DNA from: Pedobacter glucosidilyticus DSM 23534 | Lineage (GTDB): Bacteria > Bacteroidota > Bacteroidia > Sphingobacteriales > Sphingobacteriaceae | NCBI RefSeq assembly: GCF_000425145.1 | Contig: NZ_KE384311.1 | Location: 62,001-126,000, forward strand | Length of the DNA: 64,000 bases | Direction: 5' to 3' | Shown: positions 334 through 12,916 of the stretch, in pieces | How the letters are laid out: every line of letters starts with the position of its first letter | How positions within the stretch are numbered: position 1 is the first letter of the stretch | Translations under genes and position numbers: made by a program | Notes under the pieces: generated by a model | Seen by the model: only the letters and a program-made list of their open reading frames with translations | Databases searched by the model: none | What the model was told of the DNA's origin: nothing

Positions 334-3669
<3,336 letters not shown>

Positions 3670-3698: not shown

Positions 3699-4859
3699 AT
3701 GTCCACAAAGAAAATATTAAAAGGAATAACTTGGAACCATAGCAGAGGCTTTACATCTGTTGTAGCCACAGCCCAACGTTTTACAGAACTTTATCCCGAT
3801 GTAGATATCATTTGGGAAAAACGTTCTTTACAGCAATTTGCAGATATGTCTATCCAACAGCTGGCAGAAAAATACGATTTATTGGTGATAGATCATCCAT
3901 GGGCGGGCTTTGCTGCGGGTACAAAATCTATCCTTCCTTTAGATGATTATTTGCCAGCTGCCTTCATCAAAGACCAAGAGGAAAATTCGGTTGGCCGCTC
4001 TCACGAAAGCTATAATTTTAATGGCAAGCAATGGGCTTTAGCTATAGATGCAGCAACGCCCGTAGCATCAAGCAGACCAGATTTATTAGCGCAGCAAGGT
4101 TTAAGCTTGCCTGAAACTTTTGATGATGTTTTGGCTTTAGCCGATAAAGGTTTGGTAGCTTGTGCACTTATTCCTATTGATGTATTGATGGCTTTTTATG
4201 GTTTTTGTGCAACGCTGGGTGAAAAACCATGCCTACAAGACGATGTTGTAATTAGCGCAGAAACAGGTACTAAGGCTCTACAGTTATTTAAAAGCTTAAG
4301 TGATAGGATAGACCGTTCTTTCTTTGATAAAAACCCTATTCAGGTTTATGAAACCATGGTAAATACCAATCAAATAGCTTATTGTCCTTTTGCTTATGGT
4401 TATTCTAACTATTCAAGAAATGGTTATGCAGCCAACTTACTTCATTTTCATGATACAGTAAATTTAGAAGATTATGGTCATTTAATTACTTCTTTAGGGG
4501 GTACGGGCTTGGCTGTTTCATCATCATCAAAATACATCCATGAAGCGGTTAAATATGCCGAGTTTACAGCTCAACCAAATACACAAGAATTTTTATTTTT
4601 TGATAATGGAGGGCAGCCTGGGCATTTAAAAGCTTGGGAAAGTGAGCATACCAACAATGCATCTCATCAATATTTTAAAAATACCTTGCCAACCTTACAA
4701 AGGGCTTATTTAAGGTCACGTTACCAAGGGCATATGTATTTTCAAGACCATGCCGGTGATATTGTTAGAAATTATTTGTTAAACGGTGGCAATGAAAAAG
4801 CTGTTTTAGATGCTTTAAACGAGTTATATATCCAATCTAAAAATCTAGAGAAGGCTTAA
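3699..4859 (+). CDS. Solute-binding-protein-like protein without signal peptide (SBP-A)
   Basis: 386 residues resembling family 1 extracellular sugar-binding proteins of ABC importers (N-terminal alpha/beta lobe, then a TP-x-x-x-x-x-P-like hinge region, and a late GGQPGH segment). The N-terminus MSTKKILKGITWNHSRG has no hydrophobic run, and an in-frame TAA 12 bases upstream of the ATG rules out a longer secreted form. No permease or ATPase gene is in the neighbourhood. It is one base from the CoA-transferase gene behind it, so the two are almost certainly translated together. I infer a cytosolic role linked to the CoA-transferases, perhaps substrate binding; the true function is unknown. Confidence 0.65.
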   Translation: MSTKKILKGITWNHSRGFTSVVATAQRFTELYPDVDIIWEKRSLQQFADMSIQQLAEKYDLLVIDHPWAGFAAGTKSILPLDDYLPAAFIKDQEENSVGRSHESYNFNGKQWALAIDAATPVASSRPDLLAQQGLSLPETFDDVLALADKGLVACALIPIDVLMAFYGFCATLGEKPCLQDDVVISAETGTKALQLFKSLSDRIDRSFFDKNPIQVYETMVNTNQIAYCPFAYGYSNYSRNGYAANLLHFHDTVNLEDYGHLITSLGGTGLAVSSSSKYIHEAVKYAEFTAQPNTQEFLFFDNGGQPGHLKAWESEHTNNASHQYFKNTLPTLQRAYLRSRYQGHMYFQDHAGDIVRNYLLNGGNEKAVLDALNELYIQSKNLEKA

Positions 4860-4860
4860 T

Positions 4861-6003
4861 ATGAAACCACTAGAAGGCTTATTGGTGTTAGAATTTGCAC
4901 AGTTTATGGCAGCGCCATCGGCTGGTTTAAAACTGGCCGATTTAGGTGCTCGTGTCATCAAAATAGAACGCCCCGTAAAAGGCGAGGCGGGCAGGCAAAT
5001 TGCTATTAAGAATCTATTTATAGATGGTGATAGCTTAGTTTTTCATACCATAAACCGCAATAAAGAGTCTTACGCCGCCGATTTGAAAAATCCTGAAGAT
5101 TTAGAGCGCATCAAAAAGCTTATTCAGCAGGCAGATATCATTACCCATAACTTTCGTCCGGGGGTGATGGAGAAAATAGGTTTAGATTATGAGCAGGTAA
5201 AAAAGCTTAATCCTAAAGTTATCTACGCCATAGTAACGGGTTATGGCAATAAAGGTCCTTGGGCAAACAAACCGGGACAAGATTTATTAATCCAGTCTTT
5301 ATCAGGTTTAACCTGGCTTTCTGGTACAAAACAAAAAGGCCCTGTTCCCTTTGGTTTGGCTGTCGCCGATATGGTTTGTGGTGCTCATTTATGCCAAGGT
5401 ATTTTGGCAGCTTTAATCAGGAGAGCTAAAACCCAAACAGGTGCTTTGGTAGAAGTTAGCCTGATGGAATCTATCCTAGATGTGCAATTTGAAGTTTTAA
5501 CCAGTTATTTAAATGATGGAGGAAAACTCCCTGATAGAAGCTCGGTTAAAGGAAATGGACACGCCTATTTAAGCGCTCCTTACGGGATATACCAAACTGC
5601 CGATAGCTACATTACTTTAGCTATGGGTAATTTATTGCATTTAGGCGAGGTTTTAGGTATAGATTTATCAGCCTACAGCAAAAAAGAAGATTGGTTTACT
5701 AAGCGAGATGAAATCAATACTTTAATAGCCCAGCAGCTCATTAAAAAAGAAACCGATGCTTGGATATTTATCCTTGAAGAGCAAAAAATATGGTGTTCAA
5801 GAGTTTATAATTATCAGGAAATTCTAAACCACGAAGCTTATAAGATTCTGGATATGCAACAGCAGCTTAACCTGCCTGATGGTACACAGCTTACAAGTAC
5901 AAGAAGTCCCATCCAAATCAATCGTCAAAAATTATTTTCAGCAAAAGCAGCTCCTAAAGCTGGTGCGCATACAGTAGCTATAAATCAGGAATTTAACTTA
6001 TGA
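4861..6003 (+). CDS. CaiB/BaiF family CoA-transferase (copy A)
   Basis: 380 residues, typical of class III CoA-transferases, which move CoA between carboxylic acids through an aspartyl-CoA intermediate. Family landmarks are [14 protein letters not shown] near residue 25, [11 protein letters not shown] near 70, [11 protein letters not shown] near 98 and the aspartate in the VADMVCG motif (Asp170), which aligns with the catalytic Asp169 of formyl-CoA transferase. It overlaps the next gene by four bases (ATGA) and by eye is roughly half identical to it, so the pair arose by tandem duplication and may form a heteromer, as in other two-subunit members of the family. The acid substrate is unknown. 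Confidence 0.88.
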
Positions 6004-7145
6004 TGCCTTTAAAAGATTATTTAGTTGTAGACTTTAGTCAGTTTCTTTCTGGTCCGTCAGCAAGTTTGCGCTTGGCCGATTTAGGTGCTCGGGTTATTAA
6101 AATAGAACGACCAGAAACAGGAGATATTTGCAGGCATTTATATACTTCTAACGTTATTTTAAACGGAGAATCTTCTGTTTTTCATGCTATTAACAGAAAC
6201 AAAGAAAGCTTTGCTGTAGATATCAAAGATGAAAAAGACCGCGAGTGGATTTGGAAATTAATACGCAAAGCCGATGTGGTGATGCATAATTTCAGACCTG
6301 GCGTTATGGAAAGACTAGGTTTTGATTATGAAAGCGTAAAAGCTCAAAACCCGCAGGTGGTTTATGGTGAAATATCGGGTTACGGTACCGATGGTATTTG
6401 GAAAGGTAACCCGGGACAAGATTTACTTTTACAATCTTTAAGTGGTTTAACTTGGTTAAGTGGCGATGCTGATGATGGTCCTGTTCCTATGGGTTTATCT
6501 ATCATAGATATGCTGGCGGGGGCAAACTTAGCAAATGGTTTATTGGCTTGTTTGGTAAAGAAGGCTATAAGTGGCTTGGGTGCTTTGGTACAGGTAAGTA
6601 TGCTAGAAACCGCTTTTGATTTCCAGTTTGAAGCTATTACTACTTTTAATAGAGATGGCGGACAGTTACCACAAAGAACAGCTAGTAACAATGCACATGC
6701 TTATTTAGGCGCTCCTTACGGGATATATCAAACCCAAAACGGTTGGTTAGCTTTAGCTATGGGGCAAATACCAGTTTTAGGTAATTTATTAAGCTGCGAT
6801 GCCTTGCTAGCCTATCAAGAAACTGCGGAGGCTTTTGATAAGAGAGATGAAATAAAAGCGGTTTTAGCCTCGCATTTGAAGACAGATACAACAGAAAAAT
6901 GGCTATCTGTACTAGAGCCAGCAGATATTTGGTGTGCCGATGTTTTAACCTGGGATAAGTTAATGGCTCATGATGGTTTTAAAGCTTTAGAGATGCTACA
7001 AGAGGTTACCATGTTAGATGGTTTCTCTTATAAAACCACGCGTTGCCCTATTCGTATTGATGGTCAGCTATTAACATCAGCGAAAGCGTCACCTGCATTA
7101 GGGCAAGATAATGCTAAGATTATAAAAGAGTTATCAAATGAGTAA
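6000..7145 (+). CDS. CaiB/BaiF family CoA-transferase (copy B)
   Basis: 381 residues and a close paralogue of the preceding gene, with the same [33 protein letters not shown] and [17 protein letters not shown] blocks. The catalytic aspartate is kept (Asp170 in SIIDMLAG), so neither copy looks like a dead subunit. Two consecutive ATG codons begin the gene; the first overlaps the stop of copy A. Its own end overlaps the second binding-protein-like gene by eight bases, which points to translational coupling through all four genes. A heterodimeric CoA-transferase or two transferases acting on successive acids are both possible. Confidence 0.87.
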
Positions 7146-8364
7146 TATAAACAAGTTTAGGTTTGCGGTAAGAAAGTTTGAACCTTTTGAGCGCAGTATG
7201 CAAAAGATTTGGGAAAGCTTTTGCGTAGCAACAGGTTGTAAGCTTGAGGCCGAGTTTATAGCAATGGACTTACCCGAATTGCATCATGAATTAATCACTA
7301 ATGAAGGCTTAAAAAATGGAAACTGGGATGCAGCCCATTTAGTAACCGATTGGTTATTAGAAGCCTATACAGCTAATGCTATAGCAGATATTAAACCTGC
7401 TCTAAATAAGCAAGAGCTTGCCGCCTGGAGTAACTCTTTATTGGATATTCAACAGTTTGATGGTAAATTATTGGGTTTGCCTTTTCATGATGGACCTGAG
7501 TGCTTAATATATCGTAAAGATTTATTTGAATCTCCGCAAGAGCAGCAAAAATTTAAAGACTTGTATGGTAAGGATTTAAAAGTGCCCCTAAGCTGGGATG
7601 ATTTTATAGAAGTAGCGGAGTTTTTCCTAAGACCTGAGGATAGTTTATACGGTACTGTGGTAGCAGCTTTTCCTGATGGACATAATACCGTTTTTGATTT
7701 TTGTTTACAACTATGGAGTCGAGGAGGTGAATTGCTTGACGCAGATGGAAATATCCAAATTAACACTCCAGAAGCTGCTGATGGTTTAATATTTTATAGA
7801 GATTTATTAAATAATCATCAAGCAATACATCCGCAATCAGCGCAATATGAATCTGTACAAGCAGGTGAGGCTTTTGCCCGTGGCGAAGTAGCCATGATGG
7901 TGAATTGGTTTGGTTTTGCGGCTGTTTGTGAAGTTTCAGAAAGCTCAAAGGTTAAAGGTAAGGTTGATGTAGCAGGCTTACCCAAAGCTGGCAACGGAGA
8001 AGCTTGTTCTTTAAATGTTTATTGGATGTATGCCGTTGGTACAGGAAGTAAACACCAAGATATAGCATTGGCTTTTGTGAAGTATGCAACCCAAGCTCAG
8101 CAAGATAAATTACTCACTTTAGAAGGGGGTATTGGCTGTAGAAAATCTACCTGGCAAGATGCTGATGTTAATCGTATCATTCCTTATTATCATAAGTTAG
8201 AAGAGTTGCATAAACATGCTAAAACATTGCCACAAAGCAAACATTGGTCGGCCATTGCAAGCCTTATAGATGAGTTGGTTGTGAAAGCATGTTCAACTAC
8301 TGATGATGTAGGTGATTTGCTAAAAGATGCTCAGTATAAAATAAATAATATCAATACTTTATAG
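7138..8364 (+). CDS. Solute-binding-protein-like protein without signal peptide (SBP-B)
   Basis: 408 residues with a clear family 1 solute-binding-protein layout: residues around 105-125 ([20 protein letters not shown]), a central [14 protein letters not shown] segment, [14 protein letters not shown] near 240 and a late WMYAVG stretch. As with SBP-A there is no signal peptide, and an in-frame TAA at 7123-7125 excludes an upstream start. It overlaps CoA-transferase B by eight bases. It is more canonical than SBP-A but still lacks any transporter partner here. A cytosolic binding or scaffold role is my inference; a miscalled N-terminus is unlikely given the stop codon. Confidence 0.7.
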
Positions 8365-8393: not shown

Positions 8394-9437
8394 ATGGATA
8401 TTCAATATCATCCTATTTTACCTCAAAAAAAGTTGCCCATTATTATGATTGGTGCAGGCGGAATTGTAAAAGATGCCCATTTACCTGCCTATAAAAAAGC
8501 AGGTTTTGAGGTTGTAGGAATTACCAATCGTACCAGGGAAAGAGCGGTGCAGGTTGCGCAAGATTTTCATCTTCCTAATGTTTATGATTCTGTTGCTGAT
8601 GCAGTAGCTAAAGCGCCTTCAAATGCGGTTTATGATATTACAACCATGCCCGAAAGTTATATCAGTATCTTAGAGCAATTGCCAGACGGTAGCGCTGTTC
8701 TGATACAAAAGCCTATGGGCGATGATATCCAGCAAACACAAGATATCCTAGAAGTTTGTAGAAAGAAGAATTTGGTAGCGGCCATCAACTGTCAGTTGCG
8801 TTTTGCACCTTATGTAAGTGCAGCCAGATATCTTATAGAAAAAGGTTTCTTAGGCGATTTATACGATATGGAGGTAAGGGTAACCGTAGAAACACCTTGG
8901 GAGTTATTTCCGCATGTGATGGTGCATCCACGTTTAGAAATCCAATACCATAGCATTCATTATATAGATTTAATGCGGTCTTTTTTAGGCAATCCTAAAG
9001 GTGTTTTAGCTAAAACTTTAAAACATCCTGCAAAGAAGTTATCCTCATCTCGTTCTACCATTATTTTGGATTATGGCGATACGTTACACTCAGTTATCAA
9101 TACCAACCACGACCATGCTTTTGGCCCACATCATCAAGAAAGTTTTATTAAATGGGAAGGTACTAAAGGAGCTATAAAAGCTAAAATGGGTTTATTAATG
9201 GATTATCCTAATGGTGTACCCGATGTTTTTGAATATTGCTTATTAGAGGACGAAAAAGCACCCGAATGGAAAAGTATCAATTTAGAAGGTTCTTGGTTTC
9301 CCGATGCTTTTATTGGTACCATGTCTAGCCTCATGCGCTATAAAAACGGAGAAACTAAGGTTTTACCCACTAGCGTAGAAGACGTTTTTCAAACCATGAT
9401 GCTGGTAGAGAAAGCTTACGAGGTGAGTTTAAAGTAA
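8394..9437 (+). CDS. Gfo/Idh/MocA family oxidoreductase
   Basis: 347 residues. An N-terminal Rossmann fold starts with IGAGGIVKDAH (residues 19-29), the NAD(P)-binding glycine motif of this family. The usual EKP motif is replaced by QKP at 105-107. The C-terminal alpha/beta domain holds the H-S-I-H-Y-I-D block, which carries the likely catalytic histidine and aspartate. Such enzymes oxidise or reduce a hydroxyl/keto group of sugars, inositols or sugar acids. Position 30 bases after SBP-B puts it in the same catabolic unit; the substrate is not readable from sequence. Confidence 0.85.
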   Translation: MDIQYHPILPQKKLPIIMIGAGGIVKDAHLPAYKKAGFEVVGITNRTRERAVQVAQDFHLPNVYDSVADAVAKAPSNAVYDITTMPESYISILEQLPDGSAVLIQKPMGDDIQQTQDILEVCRKKNLVAAINCQLRFAPYVSAARYLIEKGFLGDLYDMEVRVTVETPWELFPHVMVHPRLEIQYHSIHYIDLMRSFLGNPKGVLAKTLKHPAKKLSSSRSTIILDYGDTLHSVINTNHDHAFGPHHQESFIKWEGTKGAIKAKMGLLMDYPNGVPDVFEYCLLEDEKAPEWKSINLEGSWFPDAFIGTMSSLMRYKNGETKVLPTSVEDVFQTMMLVEKAYEVSLK

Positions 9438-9590: not shown

Positions 9591-10037
9591 ATGTATTTTA
9601 AGTCGATTTTTTTTGAGGATTACCAATTAGAAGAGAAAAGAGTAACCTTAGGTAGAACCATTACCGAGACAGATTTTGTAGTTCATGCAGGGCATACCGG
9701 AGATTTTTTTCCGCACCATATGGATGCAGAATGGTGTAAGACACAGCCTTTTAAGCAGCGTATTGCGCATGGTTCCATGATATTTAGCATTGGTATTGGC
9801 TTAACAGCTTCGGAAATAAACCCTGAGGCGATGTCTAAAGGTTATGATAGGTTAAGATTTATTAAGCCTGTTTTTATTGGCGATACCATCCATTCAGAAA
9901 TTACCATTTCTGCCAAATCTGATGCTAAAAAGCCCGAATATGGTAACGTTACAGAACATGTAGAGGTTATTAACCAACATGGTGAGGTAGTTTTGGTGTG
10001 TGATCATATCTTATTGGTAAAAAGAAAATCTGTTTGA
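9591..10037 (+). CDS. MaoC-like hydratase/dehydratase
   Basis: 148 residues with a single hot-dog fold. The hydratase-2 motif is present as GDFFPHHMD, giving the expected Asp38 and His43 catalytic pair, followed by [10 protein letters not shown]. The asparagine usually found between them is Phe here. Such proteins add water to, or remove it from, enoyl-CoA esters. In this cluster it would act after the CoA-transferases on a 3-hydroxyacyl- or enoyl-CoA intermediate, an inference from order alone. It ends one base before the transporter start. Confidence 0.85.
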
Positions 10038-10038
10038 T

Positions 10039-11334
10039 ATGAATACGAACTCAGTAAATCAGCCATCGGTATTAAACCAAAGCAAAGGGTCAAAACAAAA
10101 CTATGTATTGCCTTTTATCTTAATAGTATGTTTGTTTTTTTTATGGGGCATGGCTCATAATTTGGATTCTATCTTGATTCCGCACTTAAAAAAAGCTTGT
10201 CAGCTAAATAACAGACAGTCTACTTTAATAGATACCTCAATTTTCTTAGCTTATTTTTTAATGGCTATTCCCGCCGGAATGATGCTTAGAAAATTTGGCT
10301 ATAAAGCCAGTATGATTATAGGTTTATTGGTATTTGCAATGGGAGCATTTTTGTTTATTCCGGCTGCCAATACGCTATCATACAGTATTTTCTTAATTGC
10401 ATTGTTTATTATTGGTTGCGGTTTAACCGTTTTAGAAACAGCAGCAAACCCTTATGCCACCATCTTAGGTAAGCCAGAGGGGGCAACAACCCGATTAAAC
10501 TTAGCTGCATCATTTAACGGTTTGACAGCTATGGTAGCGCCTATTATTGGCGCAAACTTTATATTATCTGGAAAAGAATATACAGCAGCGCAGCTAGCGG
10601 ATATGCCAGAGAGCGAAAAAATGAGCTATTTATTTTCTGAAGCAGCAGCAGTTAAAACTCCTTATTTGGTATTAGGTATCATCGTAATTCTGGTTGCTGT
10701 TTTGTTTTATTTTATCCATTTCCCAGAAATAAAGCCAAGTAAAGAAGAAAAAGCCAAAACCGGATTTTTTGCAGTCCTAAAACATCGCCATTTAAGATGG
10801 GCGGTTATAGCACAATTCTTTTATGTAGGTGCGCAAGTATGTGTAACCAGCTTTTTTATCAGAATGGCGCAGCAAGGAGCAGGTTTAGATGAAAAATCAG
10901 CAGCTTACTATTTAACCATTTATGGCTTCTTATTTATGGCTGGTAGGTTTGTAGGTACTTTCTTTTTAAAATATACTACACCACGTAAATTATTGTCCTT
11001 ATATGCGGTTTTAGCAGCGCTGATGTGTTTGTTAGCTGTTACTACGCAAGGTATTTTCGTGATTTACGCTTTAGGAATCATTGGTTTTTTAATGTCTATT
11101 ATGTTTCCAACCATTTTTTCTTTAGGTATTACCAATCTTGGAGAAGAAACAAAATCCGGTTCATCTTGGCTTATAATGTCTATTGTTGGTGGTGCTATTT
11201 TACCTTATTTAATGGGTACAGTAATAGATTATAATGGAGATAATATACAAATAGGTTATCTTATTCCTTTCTTTTGCTTTATCATCATCTTATTTTTTGG
11301 ATGGAAGCGAGGCGAAGTGGGCGTTAAAAGTTGA
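10039..11334 (+). CDS. FucP-type sugar MFS transporter
   Basis: 431 residues with about twelve hydrophobic membrane segments. The opening FLWGMAHNLDSILIPHLKK resembles the first helix of the fucose/glucose/galactose proton symporter family, and ETAANPYATILG near residue 135 is a hallmark of the FucP subfamily. It should bring a monosaccharide or sugar acid across the inner membrane. As last gene before a strong terminator it closes the catabolic cluster and is the only recognisable transporter in it, which makes the binding-protein-like genes without ABC partners more puzzling. Confidence 0.88.
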   Translation: MNTNSVNQPSVLNQSKGSKQNYVLPFILIVCLFFLWGMAHNLDSILIPHLKKACQLNNRQSTLIDTSIFLAYFLMAIPAGMMLRKFGYKASMIIGLLVFAMGAFLFIPAANTLSYSIFLIALFIIGCGLTVLETAANPYATILGKPEGATTRLNLAASFNGLTAMVAPIIGANFILSGKEYTAAQLADMPESEKMSYLFSEAAAVKTPYLVLGIIVILVAVLFYFIHFPEIKPSKEEKAKTGFFAVLKHRHLRWAVIAQFFYVGAQVCVTSFFIRMAQQGAGLDEKSAAYYLTIYGFLFMAGRFVGTFFLKYTTPRKLLSLYAVLAALMCLLAVTTQGIFVIYALGIIGFLMSIMFPTIFSLGITNLGEETKSGSSWLIMSIVGGAILPYLMGTVIDYNGDNIQIGYLIPFFCFIIILFFGWKRGEVGVKS

Positions 11335-11478: not shown

Positions 11479-12447
11479 TTAACTACATAATATCACCGCT
11501 AAATAAACAGGCATACCAATGGTAATATTTACAGGGAAGGTTACGGCTAAAGCCATTGGGATGAAAATACCTGGGTTGGCTTTAGGTACAGCAATTTTCA
11601 TGGCAGCTGGTACAGCTATATAAGAAGCACTGGCAGCTAAAACAGCCATAATAAATCTATCACCAGGTTCATGGGTAATGATTCTACTTAAGTAAGCTAC
11701 AATTAATCCGTTTACTAAAGGTGTTACAGTAGCAAAAACCACGGTAAATTTACCGCTGTTTAAGAAATCTTGTAGCTTTTTACCGCTAACAATTCCCATA
11801 TCAAGTAAGAATATTGCTAGAAAACCTTTAAAAATATCGGTAGTAAAAGGTTTAATACCCATAGCTTGCTCATCACTTGCCAAAAGTCCAATGATTAAAC
11901 TTCCTAAAATAAGCAGTACACTACCGTTAGTAAAAGAGTGTTTAATAATTTGGCTAAGGCTTTGTTGTGGTTTCATAGGGTCGTTTTTAGCAAAAATCCT
12001 TATCAAAATAACACCTATAATAATAGCCGGAGCTTCCATAAGCGCCATTACAGCAACCATATGTCCATTAAAGCCTATGTTTTGTATTTCTAAGAAAGAA
12101 ACTGCTGTAACAAAAGTAACAGCACTTACCGATCCGTAAGCAGCAGCAATTGCCCCAGCATTATAAACAGAAAGCTTTTTCTTTAAGATAAAGAAGGTGT
12201 AAAAAGGTATAGCAGTGGCAGTACAAATTCCGAAAATGATAGCGTAAATAATCGACATGGAAAACTCGCTATGCGCTAATTCTTGTCCGCCTTTAAAACC
12301 AATAGAGAATAATAAATAAAGAGAAATAAATTTTGATGTTTGGTCTGGTATGGCTAAATCGCTTTTAAGTCTTACAGCTATTATACCAAGAATAAAAAAT
12401 AAAAGAGCAGGGTTTGTTAAATTGTCAATTAAAAGATGGAAGTCCAT
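11479..12447 (-). CDS. SbtA-like sodium-dependent bicarbonate permease family protein
   Basis: About 322 residues and some ten membrane helices, matching the DUF897/SbtA permease family: DNLTNPALLFFILG at the start, IAAAYGSVSAVTFV around 105, LMEAPAIIIG around 140 and LAASASYIAVPAAMK near 280. In cyanobacteria SbtA imports bicarbonate with sodium; outside them the substrate is unproven. An upstream ATG at 12510 would overlap the neighbouring gene by over 50 bases and adds a charged extension that the family lacks, so the ATG at 12447 is preferred, leaving a ten-base spacer. Confidence 0.8.
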   Translation of the reverse strand: MDFHLLIDNLTNPALLFFILGIIAVRLKSDLAIPDQTSKFISLYLLFSIGFKGGQELAHSEFSMSIIYAIIFGICTATAIPFYTFFILKKKLSVYNAGAIAAAYGSVSAVTFVTAVSFLEIQNIGFNGHMVAVMALMEAPAIIIGVILIRIFAKNDPMKPQQSLSQIIKHSFTNGSVLLILGSLIIGLLASDEQAMGIKPFTTDIFKGFLAIFLLDMGIVSGKKLQDFLNSGKFTVVFATVTPLVNGLIVAYLSRIITHEPGDRFIMAVLAASASYIAVPAAMKIAVPKANPGIFIPMALAVTFPVNITIGMPVYLAVILCS

Positions 12448-12457
12448 TATATGAGGT

Positions 12458-12916
12458 TTAATTAGGGAAAATTCCTTTATTCGCAATGCTATAGCTTTCG
12501 TTATTTTCAAGCTGTGCTATTTCTAAACCATACTGTTCAGGGTTATTTTTTTTATAATTATAATCAACCATATTTTTCAATAACACTTTTTTTCTATGAT
12601 TTTTTGTGGATTTTTGGATAAAGTTATTTGTTGGTTTTTCATCATCATCACTATTAAAACCCCAATCTAAATTATCTCCAAAAGCGTTTTTAAACGCTGA
12701 ATCATCATTTTTACTGTCTAGAAGTTTTTTTGTTGATAGATATAAATTTAATTCTGTTTGATTTTTGGTGAGCCAAACTAATATGATAATGGCTAGTCCT
12801 ATTCCCAATTTGCTCAATAAATAATCTGATATAAAACTTACAACAATTAATATCCCCATGATAGCGAAAAGGGTAGGAGCTAATAATTTTTGGATATTGT
12901 AGCGTTTTTGCCTCAT
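12458..12916 (-). CDS. Small membrane protein of unknown function
   Basis: 152 residues. Two hydrophobic segments (about 10-32 and 35-50) are followed by a hydrophilic, Lys/Asn-rich tail of about 100 residues with an acidic SDDDEK patch. I do not recognise the family. It sits ten bases upstream of the SbtA-like permease on the same strand, so the two may be co-transcribed; whether it serves the permease is not known. Confidence 0.6.
   Translation of the reverse strand: MRQKRYNIQKLLAPTLFAIMGILIVVSFISDYLLSKLGIGLAIIILVWLTKNQTELNLYLSTKKLLDSKNDDSAFKNAFGDNLDWGFNSDDDEKPTNNFIQKSTKNHRKKVLLKNMVDYNYKKNNPEQYGLEIAQLENNESYSIANKGIFPN

Follow-up and report, generated by a model that had tools for sequence, protein, structure and literature searches.

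The stretch analysed here (the window) comprises 64,000 nucleotides (nt) of Pedobacter glucosidilyticus DSM 23534 (contig NZ_KE384311.1, positions 62,001 to 126,000), and its genes of interest form a tightly packed block in which two proteins with the solute-binding-protein (SBP) fold flank two paralogous coenzyme A (CoA)-transferases. The first gene, SBP1 (3699-4859, +), was assigned from its open reading frame (ORF), Pfam and alignment, and encodes a leaderless SBP_bac_1-fold protein of 386 amino acids (aa) with a conserved N-terminal LKGITWNHSRG motif. It is followed by CT1 (4861-6003, +; 380 aa) and CT2 (6000-7145, +; 381 aa, about 50% identical to CT1), both family III (CaiB/BaiF, CoA_transf_3) CoA-transferases by ORF and Pfam, and then by SBP2 (7138-8364, +), on the same evidence a leaderless SBP_bac_1-fold protein of 408 aa with a conserved N-terminal AVRKF.PFE motif. 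SBP1 and CT1 are separated by a 1-nt gap, while CT1 and CT2 overlap by 4 nt and CT2 and SBP2 by 8 nt. An earlier note on this DNA had described the four-gene arrangement, and its coordinates and spacings match the ORFs exactly. The Bacteroidota unit is larger, with at least six genes, and includes a Gfo/Idh/MocA-family dehydrogenase (8394-9437, +; Pfam and locus comparison) and a MaoC/PaaZ-C-type hydratase (9591-10037, +; Pfam, with 63-69% identity to three alphaproteobacterial counterparts).

Both binding-like proteins match SBP_bac_1 in Pfam (39.4 bits for SBP1 and 92.3 bits for SBP2, with a cut-off of 26), and their PDB profile relatives are maltose/trehalose-type binding proteins. The best solved relatives by profile are CUT1 sugar-importer binding proteins (MalE3, 6dtq, for SBP2 and the trehalose/maltose-binding protein 1eu8 for SBP1). 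These relatives favour the view that SBP1 and SBP2 are ordinary binding proteins of an ATP-binding cassette (ABC) importer, with a leader that was missed or some other exit route, feeding an unlinked permease. However, the two proteins differ from CUT1 binding proteins in having no leader, in having no importer permease in the window, and in their linkage to transferases, a hydratase and a dehydrogenase. As in-frame stops leave only three codons (SBP1) or four codons (SBP2) ahead of the start, with no other start codon there, no leader is possible for either protein in the window, and the claim of the earlier note on this point was borne out. The host genome has three SBP_bac_1 matches (SBP1, SBP2, and one with a lipoprotein-type leader beside two permeases and an ATPase), and the third is a good internal control for leaderlessness. 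The earlier note had also stated that the window lacks an ABC permease; genome-wide, BPD_transp_1 gave three matches, all outside the window and two of them beside the other SBP (the window was not searched for ABC ATPases).

We further evaluated the start sites in relatives, using untrimmed longest frames in 32 Bacteroidota loci and annotated or chosen starts in 15 other SBP1 and four other SBP2 genes. The 32 loci (15 and 15 genome loci and two plasmid loci) were all picked by SBP1, and many come from close kin. In 30 of them the longest SBP1 frame begins 5-9 codons before the GITW motif, the exceptions being L089, with 19 codons, and L084, where a longer frame is open; in all 25 loci with SBP2, its longest frame begins 5-17 codons ahead of the motif. 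Outside this set an earlier in-frame start is open in 7/15 SBP1 and 2/4 SBP2 genes, as the importer view would allow, but the last 60 open codons of these frames contain no leader-like hydrophobic stretch (10-residue mean ≤1.29). The earlier note had named homologues with a leader and an adjacent ABC permease as what would count against it; no leader was found in 47 SBP1 and 29 SBP2 genes, with the L084 SBP1 frame left undecided. Hydrophobicity of the first 35 residues parted the two proteins from secreted controls only roughly (46 SBP1, ≤1.69; 29 SBP2, ≤1.48; 11 controls, 0.99-3.36, where the control at 0.99 has a late annotated start). In this comparison the starts of the 32 loci were trimmed to the Met nearest the motif, which makes its motif-to-start distances partly circular, and the untrimmed test is preferred. 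The importer view also draws on Croceibacterium, where SBP2 and an ABC permease gene share 4 nt; that importer, however, has its own leader-bearing binding protein. It is already disfavoured and we consider it very improbable; by their sequences, SBP1 and SBP2 appear to be kept inside the cell.

The transferases match CoA_transf_3 over their full length (313.9 bits for CT1 and 318.1 bits for CT2, with a cut-off of 23.3). Asp170, the catalytic residue that the earlier note had reported for both, is encoded by GAT codons at 5368-5370 (CT1, +) and 6507-6509 (CT2, +), and aligns with the Asp of YfdE. The Asp was retained in all 70 transferases aligned (31 CT1, 31 CT2 and eight from other groups). 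The full-length family match and the catalytic Asp are shared with known family III CoA-transferases (Frc, YfdE, HMG-succinate CoA-transferase), and the side-by-side genes recall the two-subunit benzylsuccinate CoA-transferase (PDB 9fn0). CT1 and CT2 differ from the named enzymes, however, since neither passed the NCBIfam cut-off of any of the seven families matched (oxalate, succinate-glutarate, mesaconate, carnitine and others); the best scores were 226.1 (CT1) and 182.8 (CT2), against 750 required. Enzymes of family III shift CoA between acids via an aspartyl-CoA intermediate, according to the excerpt of PMC9813914.

A set of 100 genomes, made up of the host and 99 relatives, was examined for conservation of the block. 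SBP1 was present in 15 of them and SBP2 in 14 of those 15. A CT2 query recovered close relatives (48-100% identity), two per genome, in exactly the 15 genomes with SBP1, and 22 further genomes had only distant transferases (≤37%). Of 61 genomes, nine have close MaoC relatives (≥84%), and these are precisely the genomes of that set with SBP1; a further 21 have a MaoC match of ≤37% only. Within the genus, SBP1 was found at 98% and 93% identity, and the same loci are present in P. puniceum and in a P. glucosidilyticus metagenome-assembled genome. When a profile of SBP1 relatives was run over 395 Bacteroidota genomes, a clean split was observed between 19 genomes at E ≤1.6e-150 and 43 whose matches are only partial (≥5.5e-13), the latter being the pattern that would be expected of ordinary binding proteins.

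CT1 directly neighbours SBP1 in 31 of the 32 Bacteroidota loci, at a spacing of -38 to +238 nt (longest frames), and the order SBP1-CT1-CT2-SBP2-Gfo/Idh-MaoC is kept in 25. The remaining locus (L088, 2976-11990) has SBP1 without adjoining transferases, between an IclR regulator and a run with L-rhamnose isomerase and rhamnulose-1-phosphate aldolase; its two transferase genes are found together on the same contig, at a distance of about 60 kb. Compared over 25 loci, the distance matrices for SBP1, CT1, CT2, SBP2 and Gfo show mutual correlations of 0.86-0.96, and that for MaoC correlates with these five at 0.67-0.79, shared ancestry being uncontrolled in both cases. Such correlations would also be compatible with joint transfer lacking functional contact, that is, with a selfish operon or hitch-hiking cluster in which the SBP-like genes are decaying. 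This is hard to square with the strict co-occurrence, with the finding of no stop inside any strong match, and with varied arrangements that recur in Bacteroidota, Pseudomonadota, Actinomycetota and a haloarchaeon, and we give it very little credence.

SBP1 relatives also occur on plasmids: 145 records hold one, including 90 from Sinorhizobium and at least three from Bacteroidota. Outside the Bacteroidota we read 14 loci, 13 reached via SBP1 and one, also holding SBP1, via SBP2 (the records of L098 and L100 are unannotated and were read from ORFs called in this analysis). A transferase adjoins SBP1 in 13 of the 14, the exception being Microvirga. Pairs of SBP1 and a transferase recur in Alphaproteobacteria and Streptomyces, and a leaderless SBP2 in a haloarchaeon. 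In the nearer alphaproteobacterial set, identity to the window proteins falls from the MaoC value given above to 45-57% for the transferases, 39-47% for Gfo and 33-40% for SBP1. Four genera (Labrenzia, Qingshengfaniella, Shinella and Nitratireductor) have Gfo and MaoC about 7-9 kb from the transferase-SBP1 pair, in a run that also holds a mandelate-racemase-family protein, L-rhamnose mutarotase, a short-chain dehydrogenase/reductase (SDR), and an ABC importer together with a dedicated binding protein. This binding protein has a leader in three of the four genera; in Nitratireductor the annotated start gives none.

Croceibacterium has SBP1-CT, CT-MaoC and SBP2-Gfo near an alpha-L-fucosidase, with SBP2 apart from the transferases. 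The archaeon Halostagnicola larsenii has an SBP2 (39.5%) that is leaderless at its annotated start; its neighbours are MaoC (41%), Gfo, a transferase, an AMP-dependent CoA ligase directly preceding SBP2, L-rhamnose mutarotase and alpha-L-fucosidase, and no SBP1 match was found in the locus. A more distant set (SDR, transferase, SBP1 relative, crotonase) occurs in Streptomyces, Pseudosulfitobacter and Sinorhizobium C101; Streptomyces and Pseudosulfitobacter also have an FAH-family gene there. The FAH hydrolase was considered as a marker of the block and rejected as not diagnostic, because close relatives occur in genomes with and without the block. The gene order, which the earlier note had proposed to search for in other genomes, is thus kept far beyond this strain, in most Bacteroidota loci and in part in distant phyla. 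Its persistence in different families and phyla, and in part in an archaeon, makes the block more than a chance arrangement. The original observation holds, and it applies far more widely than the earlier note knew.

In the window, a FucP-family proton symporter (10039-11334, +; TIGR00885, 384.5 bits against a cut-off of 280.4) follows MaoC, and a GH2 glycosidase (343-3669, +; ORF and Pfam) ends 29 nt upstream of SBP1 in the same local gene run. Ahead of GH2 lies the 3' end of a relative of enolase-superfamily (MR_MLE) sugar-acid dehydratases (1-333, +; L034:1260-2333), whose start lies before the window. An Sbt_1 (bicarbonate transporter superfamily) protein (window 11479-12510, -) also adjoins the block and, judged by its N-terminus, does so in L016 and L017 as well. 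Across loci, the block neighbours include GH95 and GH78-type enzymes, alpha-L-fucosidase, L-rhamnose mutarotase and FucP or RhaT (RhaT in several relatives), and an IclR regulator lies near several blocks. Relatives of L-fucono-1,5-lactonase and of 2,4-didehydro-3-deoxy-L-rhamnonate hydrolase were found below their family cut-offs. Rhamnose genes and OiaK/OiaX relatives, the latter below cut-off, occur alongside the fucose-type genes: OiaK-like (DUF1537) and OiaX-like RuBisCO-like genes follow the block FucP at L046:193-2822 (-), and in Croceibacterium (L096) a RuBisCO-large-like gene lies about 11 kb beyond SBP2. These neighbours seem to point to L-fucose-type sugar-acid catabolism, and because they are of the fucose and rhamnose type, the substrate is likely to be a 6-deoxyhexose or its acid.

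Many loci also carry, beside the block, relatives of the genes of the non-phosphorylative L-fucose/L-rhamnose pathway (lactonase, acid dehydratase, keto-deoxy-acid dehydrogenase and diketo-acid hydrolase). This pathway is not known to need a CoA ester, and it is to its gene set that the block adds the transferases and MaoC. Like the block, the E. coli cai operon (CaiB, the CaiD enoyl-CoA hydratase and the CaiC CoA ligase) joins a family III transferase to a hydratase-type enzyme, and the CoA ligase before SBP2 in Halostagnicola parallels the role of CaiC. The window differs in having MaoC rather than a crotonase and a sugar rather than a betaine context. We know of no family III CoA-transferase with an SBP-fold partner, and no paper on the block or its chemistry, or under sugar-acyl-CoA names, was found in one open-access library. 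During the metabolism of carnitine, CoA is recycled by CaiB from product to substrate, with CaiD acting on the CoA ester, and the cai genes listed in the excerpt of the source include no binding-protein fold (PMC2131755). By analogy with the cai operon, a CoA cycle would be the simplest reading of the block, and the linkage of the transferase pair to MaoC or a crotonase fits such a CaiB/CaiD-like cycle.

The interpretation that we prefer, with a probability of roughly 0.4, is that horizontal transfer has spread the block as a module for breaking down an acid made from an L-fucose-like sugar. Uptake of this sugar would be by a proton symporter (FucP or RhaT), or by an ABC importer served by a separate, secreted binding protein, and the sugar would then be oxidised to an aldonic or related sugar acid. 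CT1 and CT2 would transfer CoA onto this acid, and MaoC (crotonase in some relatives) would dehydrate or hydrate the CoA ester; a 3-hydroxyacyl-CoA dehydratase acting on aldonyl-CoA could give the enol of a 2-keto-3-deoxy acid. The product ester would then pass its CoA to the next acid, making CoA only a catalyst. SBP1 and SBP2 would be former binding proteins of a sugar importer that lost their leader and now hold the acid or product in the cytosol, SBP1 working with the transferase and SBP2 with the Gfo/Idh-MaoC end. The strict co-occurrence of SBP1 and the transferases argues for their physical contact, and the two may form a complex. The interpretation in the earlier note, a cytosolic complex whose binding-protein folds would select or present an organic acid for CoA activation, is thus supported in part; that note did not cover the fucose-type setting. 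A bolder form, in which binding-protein folds are dedicated substrate subunits of family III CoA-transferases, serving a CoA-dependent sugar-acid route across Bacteroidota, Pseudomonadota, Actinomycetota and haloarchaea, is tentative and in our estimate somewhat unlikely.

SBP1 and SBP2 could instead be enzymes of the same sugar-acid pathway (a lactonase, epimerase or lyase, for example) that need no contact with the transferases. SBP1 relatives that lack an adjacent transferase do sit among sugar-acid genes. Over 18 diverse sequences, SBP1 has 26 invariant positions, polar ones included (among them R16, D65, D117, Y235, Y238, Q306 and R339), and several of these presumably stand in the loops that contact the sugar in maltose-binding proteins. 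There is also precedent for cytosolic metabolic use of the fold in the leaderless enzymes MqnA/MqnD and Thi5/NMT1, which belong to other Pfam families than SBP1 and SBP2. Four loci (L048, L087, L089, L090) have an amidohydrolase downstream of CT2, at the usual place of SBP2; the only one scanned, from L048, scored 150.6 bits against the L-fucono-1,5-lactonase family, below its cut-off of 400. Replacement of SBP2 by a fuconolactonase relative was considered and set aside: it is suggestive in these four loci but not clean, as in one subset of nine SBP2-bearing loci eight (L084-L086 and L091-L095; not L081) hold SBP2 and an amidohydrolase together. The exact co-occurrence of SBP1 with the transferases is also tighter than mere pathway membership needs, and we judge the enzyme alternative unlikely, if the strongest of the competitors.

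A further alternative is that SBP1 and SBP2 are operon-linked, non-catalytic buffers or sensors of a sugar acid, acting as a ligand sponge or as partners of a regulator. A buffer needs no output domain, and the IclR regulators near several blocks could supply such a partner. However, no regulator fusion was seen in the loci read, and the conserved place of the two genes is between closely spaced enzyme genes and not beside IclR, which leaves this alternative rather improbable.

Several observations weigh against the CoA-cycle module with cytosolic binding proteins that we prefer. SBP2 is missing from 7 of the 32 Bacteroidota loci (L048, L082, L083, L087-L090), and the transferase pair therefore does not need it; it is a complication of the same kind that, in Halostagnicola and Croceibacterium, SBP2 accompanies Gfo/Idh and MaoC rather than the transferases. 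SBP1 may also work alone, because relatives without a neighbouring transferase exist. In Microvirga (L058), where SBP1 is 33% identical, the only transferase match on the plasmid (30%) is 0.7 Mb away, and Wocania L018 has a distant SBP1 relative (27%) without an adjacent transferase, the three transferase genes of that genome standing in other blocks. Wocania has one full block and one short block, and the latter (L105:5858-10761, -) reads SBP1-CT2-SBP2-Gfo, with a single transferase and an 81-aa RhaT-like remnant upstream. In Labrenzia, the MaoC directly upstream of the transferase-SBP1 pair (L055:8256-8822, +) is only 38.5% identical to the window MaoC, and is distinct from the MaoC of the sugar cluster, which is 69% identical. 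Within 12 kb of the Sinorhizobium meliloti pair, neither Gfo nor MaoC is annotated, in a gene table that is incomplete. Several loci, including that of the window, hold an enolase-superfamily acid dehydratase, so that CoA-dependent dehydration could be redundant. No fusion of an SBP to a transferase was found among strong matches (longest open frame, 443 aa), and the AlphaFold models of SBP1 and SBP2 were unusable (mean predicted local distance difference test scores of 43.6 and 39.5, from thin alignments of four and three sequences). Family III transferases are, moreover, described as lone-standing enzymes in the excerpt of PMC9813914.

The block can be described as a catabolic module of family III CoA-transferases and a hydratase, in which the binding-protein fold serves a purpose that is unexplained and may be new. 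Genome records label such proteins 'extracellular solute-binding protein' or as parts of sugar importers, and here a conserved group of them lacks the usual leader as a way out and is found together with CoA-transferases. If the proposal is true, many such annotations would be wrong, family III CoA-transferases would not always stand alone, and CoA thioesters may be the form in which sugar acids are processed. As S. meliloti has a two-gene version of the pair, the question is testable in a standard laboratory bacterium.

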